Of a DNA stretch of 42,336 nt, positions 27,890 to 40,653 are shown in pieces. The stretch spans positions 1-42,336 of the forward strand of contig JAICJD010000009.1 in assembly GCA_025928645.1 (NCBI GenBank). Reading direction: 5' to 3'. This stretch comes from Gemmatimonadales bacterium. GTDB lineage: Bacteria; Gemmatimonadota; Gemmatimonadetes; Gemmatimonadales; GWC2-71-9. The notes below the pieces were generated by a model. The model was given only the letters and a program-made list of their open reading frames with translations, had not been told where the DNA came from and did no database searches. Each line of letters begins with the position of its first letter. Position 1 is the stretch's first letter. The position numbers and the translations under genes were made by a program.

Positions 27890-28936
27890 TCAGGGCTTGA
27901 ACTTCTCCGCCCCCGGAGCCGGCCTCCATGGATGGCCGGGCTCGAAGTAGCGCCAGAGCAGCGCCGACACCCGGCGCAGCAGTAGGTAGCCCTCGTTGCC
28001 CGGCGCGCCCGTCGTGTCTTCCTGTTCCTTGGTGATGAGGCAGAAGACGTAGTCGCCGGACGGCGCGTTGGCCAGCACCACCTCGGAGCGCGACTGGTCC
28101 ACCGCGCCCTGCTTCGACGCCGCCTGGACCGTGGGCGGGATCTGCGAGAGCGCCTCGCCGGTCCAGAAGCTCCGGGTCATCGTGCGGTACATCTCCTGGC
28201 TCGCCGCCGCGCTCACCACCCTGCCCTTCCGGATCTCCGTCACCAGCCGCGCCATCTCGCGCGGCGTCGTCTGTCCCCAGCCCCAGCGGTCGTAGGCGGC
28301 CTCGCGGCCGGGCGTGCGGGCGTTGACGCGGGTGACGGCGAACCCGTGGCGCTCGAGCCACGCGTTGACGGCGGTACCGGTGCCGGCGAGTCGCTGGAGA
28401 TAGAGCGACGCCGAGTTGTCGCTGAAGCTGAGGCTCAGCGTGAGCAGCCGGCTCACGGTGAGGCGCGCGGTGTCGCTCAGCCCCGCCGAAATGTCGTCCT
28501 CGGGGTACTTCGCCAGCTCGCGCGGCAGCGGCGCGGTATCGGTGAACGCGAACTCGCCGCGTGACATCGCGTCGAACACGCCGACCATGATCGGCACCTT
28601 GATCATGCTGGCGGTGGGGAAGGTATCGTCGGCGGCGACGGCCGCGGAGGCGCCGGTGCGGAGGTGCTCGACGTAGATGCCGACGCCGCCGTGGAAGCCG
28701 TGGACCGCGGCCTCGATCTCGCGCTGCAGACGCGGGTCGGGATGGGGACGGGTCTCGGGAGCAGTGGGAGACGCGGCGCCGTGAGCGCAGCCGGCCAGGA
28801 GCAGGAGGGCGAGGGCGGTGGCGCTGGTACGAATTTCATCCCGAGCGAAGCGAGGGACCTTGGCCGCCGTTCCGGAACCTTGCCGCGGTCCGGGATGTCC
28901 CACCAAGATCCCACGCTTCGCTCGGGATGACATCAT
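27890..28936 (-). CDS. Class A beta-lactamase-like serine hydrolase, lipoprotein
   Basis: TASMIKVPI (SxxK), SFSDNSA (SDN), KQGAVD (KTG-like); LLLLAGC lipobox; start region lies in a palindromic repeat. Confidence 0.85.
   Translation of the reverse strand: MMSSRAKRGILVGHPGPRQGSGTAAKVPRFARDEIRTSATALALLLLAGCAHGAASPTAPETRPHPDPRLQREIEAAVHGFHGGVGIYVEHLRTGASAAVAADDTFPTASMIKVPIMVGVFDAMSRGEFAFTDTAPLPRELAKYPEDDISAGLSDTARLTVSRLLTLSLSFSDNSASLYLQRLAGTGTAVNAWLERHGFAVTRVNARTPGREAAYDRWGWGQTTPREMARLVTEIRKGRVVSAAASQEMYRTMTRSFWTGEALSQIPPTVQAASKQGAVDQSRSEVVLANAPSGDYVFCLITKEQEDTTGAPGNEGYLLLRRVSALLWRYFEPGHPWRPAPGAEKFKP
28836..28930. repeat. Palindromic dispersed repeat with TCATCCCGAGCGAAGCG(A/T)GGGA(C/T)CTTGG arms
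   Basis: Arms 28836-28863 and 28903-28930 match as inverted repeats at 26 of 28 positions. Confidence 0.92.
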
Positions 28937-29916
28937 TGGCCGCCGAGCTCGATCTTTCCGAGCCGCCCGGTGCCGCTCAGCGCGAGCCACAGCCGATGGC
29001 GCGTGCTGTCCGTCTCCATGTGACGCACGACGGCGCCAGCGGTCGGGATCTTGACCGTCTCCATTTTCTCCGTGCGCGGGTCGAAGGCGACCATGGTGCC
29101 CGTCCGCGACTCGCAATACCAGATCCTTCCATCGGTGCCGATAGCGATGCCGTACGGGCCCGCGTTCGACGAGGGCGACACCCACTCGCGCACCTTGCCG
29201 GTGGCCGGGTCGAGCGCGCCGAGATAGCCGCGGCCGTAGTCGGTGTACCAGACGGTGCCGTTGTTGCCGACCTGCAGCCGGCGCGGCCGCGCCTCCTCGG
29301 CGGGGAGCACGAACTCCTTCATCTTCCCCGTCGCCGGATCCACCCGGCCAAGCTTGTTGGTGCCGAGCATCGCGATCCAGATGGCGCCGTCTTTCGCCGG
29401 GACGATGCCGTAGGGCACCGCGTTCGGCGTCGGCGTGGCATAGACGGTCGCCTTGCCGGTGGCCGGGTCGAGGCTTCCGTACGTGCTGTTGTTGGCGTCG
29501 GTGAACCAGACACGGCCGGCGTGATAGATGGGCGTGTGCGGGTTCCGCGCATTGCCGGGCAGCGGGAACTCGTCGATGTGCCCGGTCGCGGGATCGACTC
29601 TGCCGAGCCGCCCGGCCGCCTGCCCGGTGTACCAGACGTGGCCGTCGGGCGCGACGGTGAGCCCGTGCGGCCCCGAGCGCGGCGTCGGCGTCGGATAGTC
29701 GACCACCTTCCCGCTGGCCGGATCGAGGTGGCCGATGTAGCTGTTGCTCTGGTCGGTGAACCAGACGCTCCCGTCCTTTGCGACGGCCGGATCGTGGGGG
29801 AAGTTGTCCGGGCGCGGCAACGGGTACTCGACGATCTTCGGGGGCGCGGGGCGGGCGGGCGGAGCGGCCGCGCCGGCGATCGCCGCGAGGGCGAGCACGA
29901 TCAGTGAACGGCGCAT
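28933..29916 (-). CDS. Virginiamycin B lyase-like (Vgb) beta-propeller, secreted
   Basis: Repeated GSVWFTDQSNSYIGHLDPASGKVVDYPTPTP / GHVWYTGQAAGRLGRVDPATGHIDEFPLP motifs; signal peptide. Confidence 0.9.
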   Translation of the reverse strand: MRRSLIVLALAAIAGAAAPPARPAPPKIVEYPLPRPDNFPHDPAVAKDGSVWFTDQSNSYIGHLDPASGKVVDYPTPTPRSGPHGLTVAPDGHVWYTGQAAGRLGRVDPATGHIDEFPLPGNARNPHTPIYHAGRVWFTDANNSTYGSLDPATGKATVYATPTPNAVPYGIVPAKDGAIWIAMLGTNKLGRVDPATGKMKEFVLPAEEARPRRLQVGNNGTVWYTDYGRGYLGALDPATGKVREWVSPSSNAGPYGIAIGTDGRIWYCESRTGTMVAFDPRTEKMETVKIPTAGAVVRHMETDSTRHRLWLALSGTGRLGKIELGGQ

Positions 29917-30017: not shown

Positions 30018-31112
30018 TCACCAACCCTCGGCGATCGCCCCGACGAGCTGGGCCAGCGCCGCGACGTCGCGAAGATCCACCAGCTCCGCGGGCGAGTGCG
30101 AGTAGCGGAGCGGCCAGCCGATCGCCACGTCGGGCACGCCCCAGTCGCCGAAGGCGGAGCCGTCGTTGCCGCCATTGGTGGCGCCGAGCTGAAGCGGGAT
30201 GCGGCGGGCGCGGGCGAACCGCACCAGGGAGTCCACGTAGGCCGGTGGCGTCACGGCGCTGTTGTCCACCGCCCGGCTCACCGGCCCGCGACCGACCGGC
30301 GCCACGGCGAAGTTCCGGCGCTCGAGCGGTGAATCGGCGGAGACGAAGGTGTCGATCGCGTGCACCCGCGCCGGGCGGGTGCCGAGCGCCATGGCCGCGG
30401 CTTCGGCGCCCTCGAGGCCGATCTCCTCGCGCACGCTCCAGATGAAGATCACCGTGTGTCGGAGTCTGGCGGGATCGAGCCGCCGGGCCGCGAGGACGAG
30501 CGCGGTTGACCCGACGCGGTCGTCGAACGAGCGCGCCGTGGCACGGCTGCCGAGCAGCCGCACGTAGCGCTTGGGGCTCGTCACCGTGGCGCCGGCCCGG
30601 ACGCCGAGCGCCTCGGTTGCGGCGCGGTCGGCAGCGCCCACGTCCACCCGGACCACCGCCGGCGTGCCCGGGGCCGGCGGCGCCGCCGCCGTAACGCGAG
30701 GCAAGAAGACGCCGGGCACGGTGCGCGCCCCGGTGTGCACCAGGGCCGGCTGACCTTGCCAGAGGGAGGGGAAGAATCCGCCCTGCGCGACGGCGTCGAG
30801 CGTGCCGTCGTCGCGCACCGCGGTCACTCGAAATCCGATCTCGTCCATGTGCGCGACGAAGACCACGGTGGGCTCGCCGCGGCCCATCGTGAGCCAGAGG
30901 TTGCCGGCCGTATCGGTCTCGGTGCGCGCCCAATCCGGCAGGAGCCGCTGGACCGTCTCGCGCACCGGCCCCTCCATGCCGCTCACGCCGTAGCGCTCGA
31001 CCAGCGGGCCGAGCACGGAGTCCACCGCGGCGAGCGATGGCGGGCCCTGCGCCGCCACCGAGGCCGGCGCCCAGCAGAGGATCAGCAGGAGCAGGGCGCG
31101 CGCCGGCTTCAT
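30018..31112 (-). CDS. M42-family metallo-aminopeptidase, secreted
   Basis: VAHMDEIGFRV, SFDDRVGS, REEIGLEGAEAAA, HAIDTFVSADSP, RYSHSPAELVD. Confidence 0.88.
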   Translation of the reverse strand: MKPARALLLLILCWAPASVAAQGPPSLAAVDSVLGPLVERYGVSGMEGPVRETVQRLLPDWARTETDTAGNLWLTMGRGEPTVVFVAHMDEIGFRVTAVRDDGTLDAVAQGGFFPSLWQGQPALVHTGARTVPGVFLPRVTAAAPPAPGTPAVVRVDVGAADRAATEALGVRAGATVTSPKRYVRLLGSRATARSFDDRVGSTALVLAARRLDPARLRHTVIFIWSVREEIGLEGAEAAAMALGTRPARVHAIDTFVSADSPLERRNFAVAPVGRGPVSRAVDNSAVTPPAYVDSLVRFARARRIPLQLGATNGGNDGSAFGDWGVPDVAIGWPLRYSHSPAELVDLRDVAALAQLVGAIAEGW

Positions 31113-32077
31113 CGGGCGCCTCGGATCCAGCGCACGAGCGCCTCGCGCAGCGAGTCCGCGCCGGTGAACGACGTGGTTTCGACCGGCGTGCCCGCGTAGC
31201 GAGCCCCGAGCGTCCATCGCGTGACCGAGCCGAGCGCGGGAATCCGCATCCCGAGGCTGTCCGGGGTTCGCGCGACCGCGCCCGGTGCGCCTTCGCCGCC
31301 GTCGACCAGCACCGTCCCGGCGAAGGGCCCACGGGTGTTCGCGAGCGTCGTGAGCCCGCGGGCTTCCAGCTCCTGCTCGACCACGAATGCGACCACGACA
31401 CTCTCGCCGCGCGGGACCATGCCCTGCTCCGCCACGGCGCGCCGCGCGGCCAGCACGAGCGAGGCGCACGCCGTGCGCCGGCCCGCGACCGGCGCGGCCA
31501 CGAGATCCGCGCCGTAGCGCTGCGGCCGCTTGGCGATGGCGAGCGGATCGGTGACCGCCACACCGGCGGCAGCCACCTCGGCGGCCGACGCGGCGCCGAT
31601 GTCCACGTACCCGCTGTCCACCGTGAAGGCATCCTGTCCCGCGAGCCCGCGGCCGCGGGTGAGATGGACCGAACGCACCGCTACGACGCCGGGGATCGTC
31701 CGTGAGCGAGCAAACACCGTCACCCGCTGCCCTTGCACCTGGGCATCGCTGCCGGGCGGCACGCGGCCGGGCGCCCGGCGAAGCGTGAGCCAGCCGTCGT
31801 CACGCACGCTCCCGACCACGAACCCGGGCTCGCTCACCGGGCACGCCACCAGCCGGCGGCGCGCTCCGGCTCCCAGGACGAGCACCGTATTGCCGGCGCG
31901 GTCGCGCGCGGCGCCGGGGATCAGGGCTCGGAGCGAGTCCAGCATCGGCTGCTCGAAGCCCGTCACCGCGGTCATTCCCGCGAGCCGGACCGCCAGCTCG
32001 GACAGGCCCTGCTCGGCCTGCTGGGACGATGCGGCGCGACTACCGAGGACCGTGAACAGCAAGGCGAGCGCGGCCAC
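31109..32077 (-). CDS. M42-like paralogue lacking metal ligands (putative pseudoenzyme), secreted
   Basis: Collinear with the downstream M42 protein (SVRDDGWL, SLVLAARRAV, VEQELEARGL) but ligand motifs substituted; ATGA overlap. Confidence 0.75.
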   Translation of the reverse strand: MAALALLFTVLGSRAASSQQAEQGLSELAVRLAGMTAVTGFEQPMLDSLRALIPGAARDRAGNTVLVLGAGARRRLVACPVSEPGFVVGSVRDDGWLTLRRAPGRVPPGSDAQVQGQRVTVFARSRTIPGVVAVRSVHLTRGRGLAGQDAFTVDSGYVDIGAASAAEVAAAGVAVTDPLAIAKRPQRYGADLVAAPVAGRRTACASLVLAARRAVAEQGMVPRGESVVVAFVVEQELEARGLTTLANTRGPFAGTVLVDGGEGAPGAVARTPDSLGMRIPALGSVTRWTLGARYAGTPVETTSFTGADSLREALVRWIRGAR

Positions 32078-32121: not shown

Positions 32122-32451
32122 TCAGTTGAGCTCCCGTGTGTCCGCGGTGACGCCGGTGTCCAGGTCGTGCACGTAGATGGCGGAACCGTTGCCCTCGGCG
32201 GACTCGCGCACGACCTCTCGGAGGAGACCAAGCGCGCCGGTCAACGTGCCGGCGAAGGCGTACTCGATGCTCTGGGGCGCCGGCTCACCGTCCCGGGTCT
32301 CGGGAAGGTAGACGGCGAGGAAGCGATCCATGATGACCGGGTGAAGCTGGCGTTGATTCGGGTGCGGCAGGCCATGGCGGCGTTCGATCTCGGAGAGGAG
32401 GCGTTCGGCGATGAGGAGGCGCTCCTGTTCAAGGGCGATCGAGAGCATCAC
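32122..32451 (-). CDS. Hypothetical 109-aa protein
   Basis: MMLSIALEQERLLIAERLLSEIERRHGLPHPNQRQLHPVIMDRFLAVYLPE...; ORF on the same strand as neighbours. Confidence 0.55.
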   Translation of the reverse strand: MMLSIALEQERLLIAERLLSEIERRHGLPHPNQRQLHPVIMDRFLAVYLPETRDGEPAPQSIEYAFAGTLTGALGLLREVVRESAEGNGSAIYVHDLDTGVTADTRELN

Positions 32452-32623: not shown

Positions 32624-34906
32624 TCATTGGACGCTCACCCGCACGCTGGCCGAGTCACCCCGGCCGTCCACGGCGCGGATCCGATGGGCGCCAGGCTCGA
32701 GCGCCCAGCGCGAGCCCGCATGCGGCTGGCCATCCACGAACCAGCGAAGGCCCCGCGCCGATGTGCCGCCCGCGGCCCGGAGCGCGACGGTGGCGTACCG
32801 CGCATCCACGCCTGCAGGAACCCGATAGACGTCGCCGTCCAGCGGTGAGAGGATGCGAAAGCGGGCGTCGGTCGCGGTGGTTGCGGCCGTTGCGATGGCC
32901 CGCGGATCGGGATCGGGCGCGACGACGCCCGCGGTCGCTTCCTGCTCCGCCCATTCGGCGTACTCGGCGGGCAGCGCGACGCCGCCGGGCTGGTGCCAGT
33001 CGCAGTCGCGCCCGGGCACGACACCGGGCGCGAACCATTCCACGGCCGAGGGACAGCGTGCTGTGGCGCGAAGGCCGGAGAGCCGGCAGATCCTCACCGG
33101 CACCGCGCCGGCGGCGCCGGGCGTCGGCAGCGCGCCGGGCGAGTGGCGCCGCGCGACCGCGAGCACGGCACGATGCAGGAGCGGCCCCGCACCGCTCACG
33201 CCGCTCACCCCGTCCATCGGCCGGCCGTTGAAGTTCCCGACCCACACCGCGACCGTGAAGCTGCCGGTGGCGCCGACCGCCCAGTTGTCGGTGAAGTGCC
33301 GGCTGGTGCCGGTCTTCACGGCGACAGGGAAAGGAAAGTCGAACGGCGTCTCGATCCCGAACCCCGGGATCCGCGCCACCGGATCCTCCAGCACGTCGAG
33401 CACGAGCGCGGCCGAGCGGGCGCTGACGATGCGTCGGCCGGGCTCGACCGGCTCGTCCGGCGCGGCCGCGCGCCAGCGCCACGGCCGCCAGACGCCACCG
33501 GCCGCGAGGGCGCGGTACCCGTTCGCCAGCTCGAGCAGCGTCACGTCCCCGTTGCCGAGCGACAGGCCGAGACCGTAGTACTCCGCGCTTCGCCGAAGCG
33601 AGGTGAAGCCCGCCTCGTGCAGGACGTGGAGCAAGCTTTCCACGCCGAGCGCGTCGGCCAGGCCCACGGCGGGCAGATTGTAGCTGCTCGCGAGCGCCTC
33701 GCGCGCGCGAACGGGCCCGTGGAAGCGGCGGTCGTAGTTGCGCGGCCGATAGGGACCGGTCGAGGTCTCGTAGACCCGCGCGATGTCGGGCAGGATCGAG
33801 GCGGCCGTATACCCGCGGTCGAAGGCGAGGGCGTAGAGAAACGGTTTGAGCGCGGAGCCCGGCTGCCGGGGCGAGATCACCATGTCCACCTGGCCCGCGG
33901 TGTCCGCCCAGAAATCGGGCGAGCCGACCCATGCGAGCACTTCGCCGGTCGCGTTGTCGAGCACGACGGCCGCGGCCTGGCCGGCGCCCTGCCGCGCCAG
34001 GGTCTCGACCGTGTGGCGGACCTCCGCCTCGAGCGCGAGCTGGAGCGGCAGATCGAGCGAGGTGCGGATGGTGCCGCGTGGGGAGTCCTCCTGCCACTCG
34101 GCGGCGAGCGTCGTGAAGTGCGGAGCGCGGAAGCCGCGCGCCTCTCCGGAAGCGAGCACCGGTTCCGCGCGGGCCCGCCCGGCCTCCCGCGGCGATGCGT
34201 ACCCGTCCGCCACGAGGCGCGCGAGCGCCTCGTAGCGCCTGGTCGCGGCGCGGCCGGGGGACACGAACGCGTTGTCCGCCGAGGGAGCGCGGGCGAGGCC
34301 GGCGAGGAGCGCGGCCTGTCCGAGACTCACGTCGGTCGCGTGGGCGCCGAAGTAGAGCGCGGCGGCGGCCTCGACGCCGACCGCGCCCTGACCCAGCGGC
34401 ACGCGGTTGAGGTACTGCTCGAGAATCGCCTGCTTGGAGAGTCGGCGCTCGAGCCGCATCGCCCACCAGACCTGCTCGGCCTTGCCGAGCCAGGTGCGGC
34501 CGGACGGATGCACGAGGCGGGCGAGCTGCATGGTGACCGTCGAGCCGCCGGCCACGACCCGGCGGGCGCGCAGGTCGGACAGGGCGGCGCGAGCAAGGGC
34601 GCGCAGGTCCACGCCAGGGTGGCGGTAGAAGCGCCGGTCCTCGACCGCGAGGAACGCGGCGAGGAGGTCGGGGTCGATTTCGGCCAGCGGGATCCACCGC
34701 CGCAGCGTGCCGTCGGCGGCGCGGGTGCTTCGGAGCGGAAGGCCGGCACGGTCGAGCAGGACCAGGCCGGGGGCCGGCATGCGCAGGAGGCCCGGCGGAA
34801 GTGGCGCGGAGAGCGCGGTGAACGCGAGGGCGGCGGCCAGGAGGATTAGCGAGGCGGCTGCGCCAACTGCCGCTGCGCTCCCGCCCCCATCGCTTCCCCG
34901 CGGCAT
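32624..34906 (-). CDS. pbpC: Penicillin-binding protein 1C
   Basis: EDRRFYRHPGVD, GGSTVTMQLARL, SALKPFLYALAF, SSYNLPA, KTGTS; C-terminal PBP1C-type domain. Confidence 0.95.
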   Translation of the reverse strand: MPRGSDGGGSAAAVGAAASLILLAAALAFTALSAPLPPGLLRMPAPGLVLLDRAGLPLRSTRAADGTLRRWIPLAEIDPDLLAAFLAVEDRRFYRHPGVDLRALARAALSDLRARRVVAGGSTVTMQLARLVHPSGRTWLGKAEQVWWAMRLERRLSKQAILEQYLNRVPLGQGAVGVEAAAALYFGAHATDVSLGQAALLAGLARAPSADNAFVSPGRAATRRYEALARLVADGYASPREAGRARAEPVLASGEARGFRAPHFTTLAAEWQEDSPRGTIRTSLDLPLQLALEAEVRHTVETLARQGAGQAAAVVLDNATGEVLAWVGSPDFWADTAGQVDMVISPRQPGSALKPFLYALAFDRGYTAASILPDIARVYETSTGPYRPRNYDRRFHGPVRAREALASSYNLPAVGLADALGVESLLHVLHEAGFTSLRRSAEYYGLGLSLGNGDVTLLELANGYRALAAGGVWRPWRWRAAAPDEPVEPGRRIVSARSAALVLDVLEDPVARIPGFGIETPFDFPFPVAVKTGTSRHFTDNWAVGATGSFTVAVWVGNFNGRPMDGVSGVSGAGPLLHRAVLAVARRHSPGALPTPGAAGAVPVRICRLSGLRATARCPSAVEWFAPGVVPGRDCDWHQPGGVALPAEYAEWAEQEATAGVVAPDPDPRAIATAATTATDARFRILSPLDGDVYRVPAGVDARYATVALRAAGGTSARGLRWFVDGQPHAGSRWALEPGAHRIRAVDGRGDSASVRVSVQ

Positions 34907-37900
34907 CACTTCCCCTTCGCCTTCACGGTAAACACCCCGCCGTCGCTTTCGCCGAAGACGGCCGGGTTGTACATCTCCTCGGCATGCACGGGCGGCCGCA
35001 CGAAGGTGCCCGGTGTCGTGGCGCGCGCGACATAAGATGCGGTGTACGCGCCGGGCCAGAGCAGCGTCGCGACGTAGACGACCTTGTCGTCCCGCATCTC
35101 GCGGTGGTCGAACGGCGACCACCACCCGCCGTCCCAGCTCCCGTAGGCCCAGCGGCCGTCGCCGTTCTCGTCGTCGGGCTCGCGCGCGCTGGTGTCGGCC
35201 GCACCCGGGCCGGGCAATCCACCCGACGTGAGCAGGCTCAGATCCACCGCCTCGAGGCCGGCCGGCAACGCATCGTCCAGCACCACGAAGTGCCGCTCGC
35301 TCGGCACCGTGACCCGGAGCCGCACGCGGACGAGATCGCCCTCGGCGACCTCGGTGACGGGCCGGCCGTCCTCGTATCGCTCGTACCAGCGCTCGACGGT
35401 GACGCCGCGGATGTCGGGGCGGACCGGCGCGCCGCGCGGCACGGCGTTGACCGTGAGGTAGTAGAACACCGGCGCACCCGGCCCCGCCGCCTCGAGGTGG
35501 ACCCGCAGGCGCAGGCTGTCCTTGCCCCGCTCGACCAGGCCGTGGAGCGATACGCTCGAGTCCCGCGCGCCGCCGACTCGATCGGACGAGAGCAGCCGGC
35601 GTCCGCCTATCGTCACCCGAACATCGCGGGCGGCAGCCGCCTGCTGCTGACCCGCGAACTGGGCGAGCGCCTGCACCGCCGTGCCGTAGTCCTGCGTGTT
35701 CCACACATAGGCGAGCCCGCGCCCCTGCGCGACCAGCGTCTCGACCAGCGGTCCGACCAGCGGGTGGGCCGGCGCGATGGCGAGGGTGGCGCTCAGCAGA
35801 TAGGCCGCGGGCCGGAGCGGGGAATCGAAGTAGAAGCTCCGGCGCGACTCCCTGGGCAGCGTGGCCGAGCGCCCCTCGACCGCGACCGAGCGCCAGAGCG
35901 GCTCGAGCAGCCCGCGCGCCGCGGCCTGATCCCCGTCACGCGCGAGCACCAGCGCGAGCCGGGCACGGTCTTCCCACGCGAGCTGCGCGGACAGCCGAAG
36001 CAGCTCGTTCTCGGCGGCGCGGTCGCGCAGCCCCGCGCGGCTCAGGTAATCCACCGCCATCACCCGGTCGCTCAGCCGCACGGCATTGTCGGCGTACCAC
36101 CGCGCCGCCGGCGACACGATCGGCCGCCCCTCCGCGAGCGACTTGCGGAGGTAGGCGCCGAGCCGGGCGAGCACCGAGTCGTTCACCGCGAGTCCGGCGG
36201 TGTGGGCGTCGAGCAGCACGGCGCCGGCGTACGCGGTGAGCCACGGCGTGGTCCAGTCGTCCGCGCCCCAGAGGCCGATGCCGCCGTCGGACCGCTGGCG
36301 CCGGCTCAGCGTCGCGACCGCCCGCTCGAGCTCGCCGCGGGCCCTTCGCGCAAGCGCCGTGTCGCCGAGCGCGGGCGCCGACTGCGTCAGCGCGATCAGC
36401 GGCTGGGCGGCGCTTGCGAGCTGCTCGGAGCACCAGTACGGATAGATGCGCAGCCAGAGGTGAGCGCCCTGGATCATCGCCACCGGCGAGGTCCCGAGGC
36501 TGAGCGACAACGTGGATCGCTCCGGGTCGACGTCCGCCGGGAGCACCAGCTCGGCGGACGCGGTGTCGTGCAGGACGCCGGCCACGGTATAACCCCGCGG
36601 GTGGGAAACCGGCTCCAGCGGCAGTGACAAGGCGATTGCGTCGGCGTCCGGGCCGCTGGTGGCGTCGAACCGGAACGTGGCGCTGTCGGCCGCGCGCGCC
36701 TGGAAGTCGAAGCGCACCTCGCGCCCGCGCCCCGGCTCGAGCTCGGCGGTGCGGGTGCGCTTGCCTTTGAGCTCGGTGCCCCCGCCCTTTACTCGCGCCG
36801 TCACCTTCGCTTGCCGGGCCGCGCCGTCCCGGCTGTTGACGACCACGCCGGCCGCGAACCGATCGCCGGCACGGAGGAAGCGCGGGAGCGCGGGCCGGGC
36901 GACGAGCGGGCGGGTCACCAGGAGCGACGACTGGCCGCTTCCGTACCGGTCGCCGGCCGTCACGGCGACGGCCATCAGGCGGAACGTGGTGAGATTGTCG
37001 GGAAGGCGGGCGCGGGCCTCGCCCTTGCCGGCCGCGTCGGTGGTGACCGAGCCGAGAAAGAACGCGGTGCTCTGGAAGCGGCTGCGCAGGATGTCGGCGC
37101 CCTCGCGCCCGCCGCCGCCGCCGGGCGCGCGCTTTCCCTTCTCGCCCTCGGCGATCTGGGGCGCGACCGTCGTGAGCGTGCTCGCGAGCCGCATGCCGAG
37201 CCCGCGCGGCTGGTAGATGAGGTCGATGGGATCGGGCGTGCGGTAGCCGGTGAGCGCGAGCACACCCTCGTCCACGGCCCAAAGCGTCACCTCGCTCCGC
37301 TGGCCCGCGCCGGCGGCGTTGCGCACCTGGAGCGCGACGCGGGCGGTGTCGCCCGGGCGATATTCCCTTGCCAGCGGGGTAACCTCGACTGCAAGCCGCT
37401 TGCGCTCAGGCGTCACGCGGAGCTCGGCGTAGCCCACGCGTATGGTGGGGCGGCCCGGGTCGTCGAGCGGGCCGGGAGGGGCGCTCCGTCCGCGCGCGAC
37501 CACGATCGAGACGTAGGCATTCGGGGCGAGCGCCTCGGTGATCGGCAGCTTGAGCGTGGTGGTGCCGCTCCGGATCGTGAGCCGCCGCTGCTGGAGCAGG
37601 CCCTCACGCTCGACGGTGATCCAGGCCTCCGCGTCGGTGAACGGCGAGGCGAACAGCACGGTGGCCGTGTCGCCCACGGCGTACTTCGCGCGGTCGGCGA
37701 TGACGTCCATCTTGAACTGGCTTTCGTCGTTCCAGGGCACCCAGTCCTTGCCCGTGGCCCAGCGGACGAAGGTCGTGCGGACCGCGCGGCCGTTCGCATC
37801 GCGCGCGTCGAGGCTCACGAAGTAGGTGCCGCCGGCCGGCGGCGTGAACCCGCACCGCGCCGCCTGGGCCGCGGTCGTGAGTGCGCAGCGCGCGACGGTA

Positions 37901-40653
37901 TCCGAGACCCACTCGCCCACGAGCTCGCCGTAGCCGTCCCGGTCGCGCTGAACCGAGTGCCACTCGCGCCGCACGACGGTCCCCCGCACCTGGACGGCGG
38001 GAATGCGGGTGCCGTCCGGACCCACGGCCAGGACCGACACGGTGACCGGGGTGCCGGCGGTCCAGAAGTACCCGTCGCCCCCGGGTTTCGCCGCGATGTA
38101 GAAGTCGGCGGGGTGTACCACCGCGGAGGCCGAAGACGAGACCGTCTGGCGGTTGACGTCCACCACGGTCGCCTCGAGCGTGGCCCGCGACGGCCGGCCA
38201 CGCCGCGTGTCGGCGAGACGCACGCGAAGCGGCAGCCGGCCCGCCGCGTCGAGCGTGTCCACGCCGCTGGCCGCGACCTGGACCGCCGGCTCGGTCTCTC
38301 CGGTCTCGTCGTCCCACCAGCCCGTGTCGCCTACATAGAAGTCGTCGGTTCCGGGGATCTCGATCTCGCCGGGCCACGTGCTCTGCTGGCGCAGCGTCCA
38401 GCGCACGGCCGCGCGCCCCATCGGCGCGCCGAACAGGTAACGCGCCTCGACCGCCGCGGCGAGCGAGTCGCCCGGGTAGTACCGCCCGCTGTCGGCGGTC
38501 ACGTCCACCAGAAATTCGGGTGGCCGATATTCGGCGACCCGGTAGCCCGTGGACGCCACCTCGGTCCAGCGTCCGGCGCGGCGGAGCCGAAGGGTTACGC
38601 GGTACGCGCCGAGCGGCGCCGTGGCCGGCACCAGGAAGCGCTGGTCGGCCGTGCCGAAGGAAGACAGGGCGACGACCGTATCGCGCAGCGCCGCGGGAGG
38701 ACCGTTGTCGTCCGCCCGCGCCTCGAAGATCCAGCGGAGCGAATCGCCCGCCGCAGGCGCGGCGAGCGCGCCGAGCGGGCCGGTACGGACGATCGCCTTG
38801 GCGAAGAGCGGCTCGCCGGGGCGGTAGATGCCGCGCTCGGTGAACACCGCGGCGGCTACCGGCAGCCGGGTCGCGCCCCAGGCCTCGGAGACGTTGAAGC
38901 GCCACGGGCCGAGATCGGGGTCGTAGTCGTTGATGCCGACCAGGGCGCGGTCGGCGCCGAGCACGACGCTCACGTAGCCCTGAAAGCCCGACGGCGTCGA
39001 CTCGTCGGCTTCGCCGTTTTCCGCGTTCGGCGGCGGGGAGCGGTAGCCGGTGAGCCGGGCCAGGCCGCTCGTGTCGGTCGTCGTCCGCGCAAGGACTCTG
39101 CCCTCGGCATCGTGCAATTCGACCGAGGCGCCCGCGCGGGGGCTGCCGTCGCTCGCTCCGGTCACCCAGACGACGCCGTCCTCGCTCCCGATGCGCGCGT
39201 GCACGCCGAGGTCGGTCACCTGCAGGAGGGCGATCGGACGGTTGCGCCGGCTCAGGCTGTCGAGCCGCGGGCTCGTGACCTGCAGCGCGACGAGCGTCGG
39301 CGTGCGCGCACTTCTGTAGGCCGGAGCGGGAAGGCCCACACCGTAGATTCGCACCCGGTCGCGCGGGCCGGTCACCGGGATGCGCCGGAGGCGCGCGCCG
39401 GGCAGCAGCGCCGGCCAGAGATCGTTCCAGCTCCACTCGCTGCGGGAAAGGAATGCTGCCTCGAGCGTGTCCGGCACCGGCGCGGTCACGACCTCGAGCG
39501 TATCCACGTTCACGAACGAGAGCGCGAAGGTGCCCGGGCCCTTCCGCTCCACGACCGCTCGCCCCGATGCGTAGTTCACGGCCGGCGCGTAGCCGGTACT
39601 CACGGCCGTAGCGACGGGGTTCCCGGTGAGCGGCTGGCCGAAGCGGTCGGTGAGGCGGCGGTCGGCCACCACGGCGTAGGCGGTGCGCGGGGCGAGCCGC
39701 GCGTCCAGCGTCCACTCGGCGCGCACCTCGCTGGTGTCGCCGATGTCGAACGGGACCGCGGGGCGGATGGATAGAAAGCGGCGGAGCTCGGCGCCGCGGA
39801 CCGGCGTACTGAAGCGCACCACCAGCGGGCCGGTCGGGCAGGCGGCGCGGCTCCAGCCGCAGGTGGCGGCGGTGAGACGGAAGTCGCCGTAGGTCGCGAA
39901 GGTCCACCGTCGAGGGGCGCCATCCCGCTCGTCGAACGCGGCGGGCACGACCAGCTCGCCCGCGCAGCCGCGCGGAAGGGGCGCGCGGGGGGCAAGGCGC
40001 ACGACCCGGCGCAGCGGATCGGCCGCGCGGTCGCGGTCCCAGCCGCCCGCCTCGCGAAAGTCCCACCGGTCGTCGGCCGTGACCGCCTGCTGCGTTTCCA
40101 GGCGGAGCCGGACGACGCCCGGCGCGGAGCAGCTCTGCCCAAAATCGAGGTACGCCGAGCGCGCGACCGCCGCCGAATCCACCGGCGCGTCGACCACCAG
40201 ATCGAACCGCGCGTTCGGCGGGAGGTAGCGGGAGCCTCCATTCGGGCCCACCGGCCAGCCGGCGAGGACGCGCGGCCCGCGCACCCGGAACGAGAACCGG
40301 TACGGCCGCGAGAGGCGGCTTCCATCCATCGCGGCGAAGTCCTTCGCCACCGTGACGGTGTAGACGGTGTTCGACGCCAGCGGCGCGGCGGGCCGGAAGC
40401 GGATCGTCACGGGATCGCGCCAGTCGAGCGTGCCCGCGACGGCGGGCGCGATCGTGAGCACCTTGCGCGGGTCCACCGTCCGGTCGAGCGACCCCGCCAC
40501 CGGACGGTCGAACGTCACCGTCACCGACGCCGTGGGAGACGCCTCGCCGGACGGCGTGGCGCGAAGCACGCGGAGGTCCGTGGCCTGATCGGCCGCGACT
40601 CCGGCCGCGGCGGCGACCAGCAGGCGAAGCGCGAGCGATTGTGGGGGAAACAT
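34906..40653 (-). CDS. Bacterial alpha-2-macroglobulin family protein (1915 aa)
   Basis: MG-type domains (SVELHDAEGRVLARTTTDTSG; FTERGIYRPGEPLFAKAIVR), thioester motif CSEQ at 36421-36432, terpenoid-cyclase-like repeats; stop overlaps pbpC start (TGATG). Confidence 0.95.
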   Translation of the reverse strand: MFPPQSLALRLLVAAAAGVAADQATDLRVLRATPSGEASPTASVTVTFDRPVAGSLDRTVDPRKVLTIAPAVAGTLDWRDPVTIRFRPAAPLASNTVYTVTVAKDFAAMDGSRLSRPYRFSFRVRGPRVLAGWPVGPNGGSRYLPPNARFDLVVDAPVDSAAVARSAYLDFGQSCSAPGVVRLRLETQQAVTADDRWDFREAGGWDRDRAADPLRRVVRLAPRAPLPRGCAGELVVPAAFDERDGAPRRWTFATYGDFRLTAATCGWSRAACPTGPLVVRFSTPVRGAELRRFLSIRPAVPFDIGDTSEVRAEWTLDARLAPRTAYAVVADRRLTDRFGQPLTGNPVATAVSTGYAPAVNYASGRAVVERKGPGTFALSFVNVDTLEVVTAPVPDTLEAAFLSRSEWSWNDLWPALLPGARLRRIPVTGPRDRVRIYGVGLPAPAYRSARTPTLVALQVTSPRLDSLSRRNRPIALLQVTDLGVHARIGSEDGVVWVTGASDGSPRAGASVELHDAEGRVLARTTTDTSGLARLTGYRSPPPNAENGEADESTPSGFQGYVSVVLGADRALVGINDYDPDLGPWRFNVSEAWGATRLPVAAAVFTERGIYRPGEPLFAKAIVRTGPLGALAAPAAGDSLRWIFEARADDNGPPAALRDTVVALSSFGTADQRFLVPATAPLGAYRVTLRLRRAGRWTEVASTGYRVAEYRPPEFLVDVTADSGRYYPGDSLAAAVEARYLFGAPMGRAAVRWTLRQQSTWPGEIEIPGTDDFYVGDTGWWDDETGETEPAVQVAASGVDTLDAAGRLPLRVRLADTRRGRPSRATLEATVVDVNRQTVSSSASAVVHPADFYIAAKPGGDGYFWTAGTPVTVSVLAVGPDGTRIPAVQVRGTVVRREWHSVQRDRDGYGELVGEWVSDTVARCALTTAAQAARCGFTPPAGGTYFVSLDARDANGRAVRTTFVRWATGKDWVPWNDESQFKMDVIADRAKYAVGDTATVLFASPFTDAEAWITVEREGLLQQRRLTIRSGTTTLKLPITEALAPNAYVSIVVARGRSAPPGPLDDPGRPTIRVGYAELRVTPERKRLAVEVTPLAREYRPGDTARVALQVRNAAGAGQRSEVTLWAVDEGVLALTGYRTPDPIDLIYQPRGLGMRLASTLTTVAPQIAEGEKGKRAPGGGGGREGADILRSRFQSTAFFLGSVTTDAAGKGEARARLPDNLTTFRLMAVAVTAGDRYGSGQSSLLVTRPLVARPALPRFLRAGDRFAAGVVVNSRDGAARQAKVTARVKGGGTELKGKRTRTAELEPGRGREVRFDFQARAADSATFRFDATSGPDADAIALSLPLEPVSHPRGYTVAGVLHDTASAELVLPADVDPERSTLSLSLGTSPVAMIQGAHLWLRIYPYWCSEQLASAAQPLIALTQSAPALGDTALARRARGELERAVATLSRRQRSDGGIGLWGADDWTTPWLTAYAGAVLLDAHTAGLAVNDSVLARLGAYLRKSLAEGRPIVSPAARWYADNAVRLSDRVMAVDYLSRAGLRDRAAENELLRLSAQLAWEDRARLALVLARDGDQAAARGLLEPLWRSVAVEGRSATLPRESRRSFYFDSPLRPAAYLLSATLAIAPAHPLVGPLVETLVAQGRGLAYVWNTQDYGTAVQALAQFAGQQQAAAARDVRVTIGGRRLLSSDRVGGARDSSVSLHGLVERGKDSLRLRVHLEAAGPGAPVFYYLTVNAVPRGAPVRPDIRGVTVERWYERYEDGRPVTEVAEGDLVRVRLRVTVPSERHFVVLDDALPAGLEAVDLSLLTSGGLPGPGAADTSAREPDDENGDGRWAYGSWDGGWWSPFDHREMRDDKVVYVATLLWPGAYTASYVARATTPGTFVRPPVHAEEMYNPAVFGESDGGVFTVKAKGK

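Follow-up and report, generated by a model that had tools for sequence, protein, structure and literature searches.

Reciprocal loss of metal ligands and a loop histidine in the paired halves of an apparently exported M42-type peptidase of Gemmatimonadota and Acidobacteriota

The window analyzed here comprises a complete stretch of 42,336 nucleotides of a Gemmatimonadales bacterium, whose genome is a 3.9-Mb draft with 294 contigs. It harbors two adjacent genes that encode proteins of the peptidase family M42 with 34% identity over 179 residues. Both are located on the minus strand, a detail that the first-pass annotation had not given. The upstream gene encodes a degenerate protein, which is designated as pseudo-subunit below, and the downstream gene encodes the active subunit.

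31109..32077, minus strand: gene of the pseudo-M42 subunit, 322 aa, GTG start; signal peptide, most metal ligands lost, loop histidine kept
30018..31112, minus strand: gene of the active M42 subunit, 364 aa; signal peptide, all metal ligands kept, loop histidine lost
31109..31112, minus strand: ATGA overlap (-4) of the pseudo-subunit and active-subunit genes

Just upstream of the pair (32624-40653, minus strand), Pfam matches identify a gene for a bacterial alpha-2-macroglobulin (1915 aa) that overlaps the gene of a PBP1C-like transglycosylase/transpeptidase, and the neighborhood therefore encodes envelope or exported proteins. The PBP gene and the pseudo-M42 gene are separated by a 109-aa ORF (32122-32451, minus strand) that has no Pfam match at E 0.001. 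The genes just downstream of the pair (27890-29916, minus strand) encode a class A-type beta-lactamase-family protein and a virginiamycin B lyase-like propeller protein according to Pfam.

The Pfam profile Peptidase_M42 covers the whole active protein (positions 1-292, E 6.6e-56, 190 bits vs. a cut-off of 23.2). Site comparisons were based on a reference set of 16 complete M42 enzymes from related genomes. Their alignment with the active subunit documents that all six ligand and base positions are kept, together with Asp90, and that the loop histidine conserved in M42 enzymes (H123 of TET2) is replaced by Ala142.

30843..30851, minus strand: active subunit His88 (ligand) and Asp90, from the alignment
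30687..30689, minus strand: active subunit Ala142 at the loop-histidine position, from the alignment
30522..30524, minus strand: active subunit Asp197, bridging ligand, from the alignment
30423..30428, minus strand: active subunit Glu229 (base) and Glu230 (ligand), from the alignment
30351..30353, minus strand: active subunit Asp254, ligand, from the alignment
30096..30098, minus strand: active subunit His339, C-terminal ligand, from the alignment

The family assignment is specific in that Peptidase_M42, M20 and M28 are the only Pfam matches above the cut-off and the Foldseek matches represent M42; the fold and the HxxEH motif of family M16 were not found. A search of NCBIfam provided no more specific family, and every match fell far below its own cut-off.

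The pseudo-protein is matched by the same Pfam profile only at positions 2-179 of 292, thus over its first 60% (E 2.1e-15, 57 bits). The equivalent sites are listed below in P0001 numbering, which is 7 higher than the numbering of the 322-aa protein.

31832..31840, minus strand: pseudo-subunit Pro87 and Ser89 at the place of the ligand His and the neighboring Asp of active enzymes, from the alignment
31661..31672, minus strand: pseudo-subunit loop Ser143-Val-His145-Leu146, motif S-x-H-L, equivalent of the TET2 H123 loop; His codon at 31664-31666
31481..31483, minus strand: pseudo-subunit Gly206 at the bridging-Asp position, from the alignment
31370..31375, minus strand: pseudo-subunit Gln242-Glu243 at the Glu-Glu (base and ligand) position, from the alignment
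31190..31192, minus strand: pseudo-subunit Gly303 at the position of the C-terminal ligand His, from the alignment

In the alignment with the 16 complete enzymes, the first ligand histidine and the neighboring aspartate are substituted by Pro87 and Ser89, the bridging aspartate by Gly206, the base glutamate by Gln242 and the C-terminal histidine by Gly303. The pseudo-protein accordingly lacks a complete metal-binding site, with two of the six positions being kept (Glu243, Asp266), and no ligands at shifted positions were seen in the sequence alignment. The first-pass annotation had claimed that the His/Asp, bridging Asp and C-terminal His ligands are replaced in the upstream protein, which holds for these main ligands; its motif VEQELEARG represents a partial loss only, because Glu243 and Asp266 are still acidic. 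Three of its other claims, namely the ATGA overlap (31112-31109), the persistence of the M42 motifs in the downstream protein and the retention of the M42 fold in the upstream one, proved correct. The AlphaFold2 model of the pseudo-protein, which is based on an alignment of 33 rows, has a mean pLDDT of 91.6, and its best PDB matches in Foldseek are TET-type M42 aminopeptidases with a query-normalised TM-score of up to 0.84 (PhTET1). According to the predicted secondary structure, the model lacks the helix-strand-helix segment by which the active half connects its Asp ligand to the C-terminal His.

The conservation of the pair was investigated in 84,980 species genomes with the active half as query; of the 269 hits, the best 80 were retained. 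These 80 loci originate from Gemmatimonadota, Acidobacteriota and one planctomycete, and they comprise 42 fused and 35 tandem forms as well as three that are cut by a contig end. Pseudo and active halves are present together in 77 of the 77 assessable loci among the best 80 of 269 hits, a count obtained with an active-half query that could miss stand-alone pseudo-proteins. A search with the pseudo-protein in 61 genomes revealed none that is clearly apart from an active half. Moreover, 18 of 60 relatives, in addition to the window's own genome, harbor a close pseudo-M42 as a separate gene, and in six relatives of family f2 a single open frame of 695-797 codons spans both halves. The relatives and the species-genome scan both rule out that the pair is unique to the window's genome. 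Matches of the active half with an E value of 1.4e-96 or better are present in 107 of 395 sampled Gemmatimonadota genomes, among the matches listed. Searches of G001-G004 and G006, which belong to the same genus and are all incomplete drafts, did not recover the pair, which is therefore accessory.

These distributions bear on two alternative explanations of the degenerate gene. The source genome is a draft of 294 contigs, as would suit gene decay or an assembly artefact, but the reading frame is intact over many families and several phyla and ten columns of the pseudo half are invariant, a conservation that rules out both. It is also quite improbable that the pseudo-protein acts on its own, for instance in binding peptides or in sensing, and is merely co-expressed with the peptidase. 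Its own signal peptide and the loss of most ligands would be compatible with such a role, but the protein never occurs apart from the active half in the 77 assessable loci from the best 80 of 269 hits, is fused to it in 42 of them, and was not clearly separate in any of the 61 genomes searched with it.

In a quick tree, all pseudo halves form one branch and all active halves another. Since each half represents one clade, a single old duplication would explain both of them. The fused or tandem state has changed at least three times, and two of these changes are forced by well-supported branches. One seemingly fused form with a 743-codon frame is located in the window's own family f1 (G076:C168), and one of the f2 genomes (G211) contains two fused copies; fusion state and copy number therefore vary within families.

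Of the 35 tandem homologues (best 80 of 269 hits), 33 offer a start at the -4 overlap. Translation from this start gives the active protein a hydrophobic, signal-like N-terminal segment, which is absent from the linkers of the fused chains. Both proteins of the window have signal-like segments, in agreement with the signal peptides that had been proposed for them. Because such a start segment is present in the tandem active proteins and absent from the fused linkers, both halves appear to be exported in the fused and the tandem form alike. The active subunit of the tandem pair from Planctomycetota (L079) starts with a lipobox-like IVASGCAS and may therefore be a lipoprotein instead of a soluble exported protein.

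The most conspicuous feature of the pseudo half is its loop. In the sequence comparison, SVHLTRGR of the window lines up with the loop PPHLRRGQ from a TET enzyme of Pyrococcus, and by the residue numbering of the alignment H123 of TET2 falls in this loop. The loop motif of TET2 has been reported as Pro-Pro-His121-123; H123 may be located near the site of the adjacent subunit, and its mutants exhibit weaker substrate binding (PMC8993905). The cryo-EM structure of TET2 places the loop histidine more than 20 Å from the active site (PMC8993905), and its action in trans is thus not settled for M42 itself. The situation is clearer in the M18 enzyme DNPEP, where the loop histidine of the opposing subunit (hDNPEP His170) binds the ligand and completes the active site, and where the His170Phe mutant is inactive; loop swapping of this type was proposed by the authors for M42 dodecamers, too (PMC3472314).

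Our comparison of the two halves showed that the loop histidine is present in all 76 pseudo halves that cover the position and in all 16 stand-alone M42 enzymes, and at the aligned position in none of the 81 active halves. Ten of these 81 contain a histidine elsewhere in or near the loop, including L035 (APHD) and the modelled L077. The six ligands are complete in 79 active halves; the remaining two have one position missing or altered each, and one of them is truncated at the end of a contig. Among the pseudo halves, the maximum is three of the six. The losses are reciprocal: the metal ligands are intact in the active halves and mostly lost in the pseudo halves, and the loop histidine shows the reverse. 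This reciprocal change seems to go back to one old event, which descent has maintained, and not to many independent ones, and its weight therefore results from maintenance over deep divergence instead of independent repeats. A third M42 gene of the window's genome encodes a stand-alone protein of 359 aa without an evident signal peptide, in which the metal ligands and the loop histidine are both present.

Only 10 of the 277 columns are invariant in the pseudo half, and three of them are S, H and L of the loop. The other invariant positions are structural Gly, Asp and Glu residues common to the active enzymes, as would be expected if the pseudo-subunit were a purely structural or regulatory partner that stabilises or gates an M42 oligomer, with its loop histidine conserved for folding or assembly. 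Co-occurrence, fusion and gene coupling likewise suit any obligate partner. We nevertheless consider this explanation rather unlikely: it does not account for the fact that exactly the histidine catalytic in trans persists in the half without metals and has disappeared from the half that bears them. Furthermore, the tip of the loop is the only segment with a pLDDT below 50 in the model of the isolated pseudo-protein, and this speaks against a contribution of the loop to the protein's own fold.

Two cysteines of the pseudo-protein, located in the motifs ACP and RTAC, were evaluated as a new metal or disulphide site. Both of them are conserved in the 24 Gemmatimonadota sequences that were first aligned, but acidobacterial pseudo halves, for example L103 (VAAPIDEPG, GDRFGAAVL), lack them, and the site can therefore not be a shared function. 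This very improbable candidate was rejected, given that the cysteines are not conserved beyond Gemmatimonadota. The aspartate beside the lost ligand histidine is kept in 74 of 75 pseudo halves despite the loss of the metals from this site, with the window protein (Ser89) as the sole exception.

The invariance of the loop histidine in the pseudo half and its loss from the active half indicate a catalytic contribution in trans. It is our favored conclusion, held with good though incomplete confidence, that the window encodes an M42-type aminopeptidase that is exported, probably forms an obligate heterodimer and has a single composite active site, to which the pseudo half lends its loop histidine. 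The downstream subunit would bind two metals and hold the catalytic base. The site of the upstream pseudo-subunit itself would be vestigial, and the histidine of its S-x-H-L loop would reach the metal site of the partner, stabilise the substrate and possibly help to activate water, as in human DNPEP (M18) and probably TET2 (M42). The halves would pair as a pseudo-symmetric M42 dimer with one working composite site and a dead reverse site, whose loop has diverged. Such an arrangement would have evolved from a duplicated homodimer with two equivalent sites that became a heterodimer by reciprocal losses. The model of the fused protein L077 has a pLDDT of 89.8 and a pTM of 0.89 over both domains, a value that suggests a defined arrangement of the two. 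The pairing is well supported, and the trans-histidine mechanism is likely.

On a broader scale, there is a reasonable probability that the pair exemplifies a class of exported M42 peptidases that is widespread in Gemmatimonadota and Acidobacteriota and arose when a loop-swapped homodimer was turned into an obligate heterodimer with one composite site, encoded by overlapping genes or as fused chains. The core idea of the first-pass annotation, namely that the degenerate copy is a subunit of an exported hetero-oligomeric M42 peptidase, finds good support in the strict co-occurrence, the conserved gene overlap, the signal-like segments of both proteins and the fused chains of other lineages. The regulatory or scaffolding function that it suggested for the degenerate copy leaves the pattern of the loop histidine unexplained and is probably not the main one; the composite-site proposal is also the more specific of the two.

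The known M42 TET aminopeptidases (PhTET1/2/3, TmPep1050, PepA) share the M42 fold with both halves and the full set of ligands with the active half. They are homo-oligomers or mixtures of active paralogues that carry the metals and the loop histidine in one chain, whereas the present pair distributes them between different chains or halves, and its proteins are apparently exported. Co-assembly of M42 paralogues is known from the PhTET2-PhTET3 heterododecamers that were reconstituted in vitro and from YtoP-YsdC of B. subtilis, which was detected by crosslinking (PMC4220976, PMC10090944). In the parts of these sources consulted here, they are not described as enzyme/pseudoenzyme pairs, and there is no mention of overlapping, coupled genes or of a fused form. 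The completion of an active site by the loop histidine of the opposing subunit, which is proposed here, has its precedent in hDNPEP (PMC3472314); that enzyme is a homo-oligomer with equivalent sites, whereas only one of two sites would work in the M42 pair.

The closest analogue in design is family M16, where MPP alpha/beta, bacterial M16B pairs and fused M16A/M16C enzymes require a metal-less homologous half that is encoded by a neighboring gene or within the same chain (PMC11266112, PMC12731061). The M42 pair likewise consists of homologous metal-bearing and metal-less halves in split or fused form, and we infer from the invariant loop histidine that its metal-less half may supply residues needed for catalysis, as in the M16 design. 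Fold and family of M16 are unrelated, so the M42 case would be convergent, and M42 would gain a counterpart of the active/inactive-half design. No description of a pseudo/active pair or fusion of M42 was found in the open-licence literature, and M42 goes unmentioned in a 2024 review of inactive metallopeptidase homologues. By the measure of this literature, an active-site arrangement that is split between two homologous M42 halves would be new within the family.

The pair would represent a common exported peptidase of major soil bacteria, whose proteins are classified by current profiles as ordinary M42 only. It also provides a natural separation-of-function experiment, since evolution has placed the loop histidine and the metal site in different chains; the role of this histidine in its own site versus the neighboring site is therefore directly testable.

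Two further loci deserve attention. L119 (G052:C44) encodes a separate, apparently exported stand-alone M42 protein in an open frame of 411 codons, with the ligands and the loop histidine both present. The tandem pair L072 from Acidobacteria gp22 contains a pseudo half that has kept AHMDE and DDR and lost the Glu pair and the C-terminal His, and which might represent a possible evolutionary intermediate.
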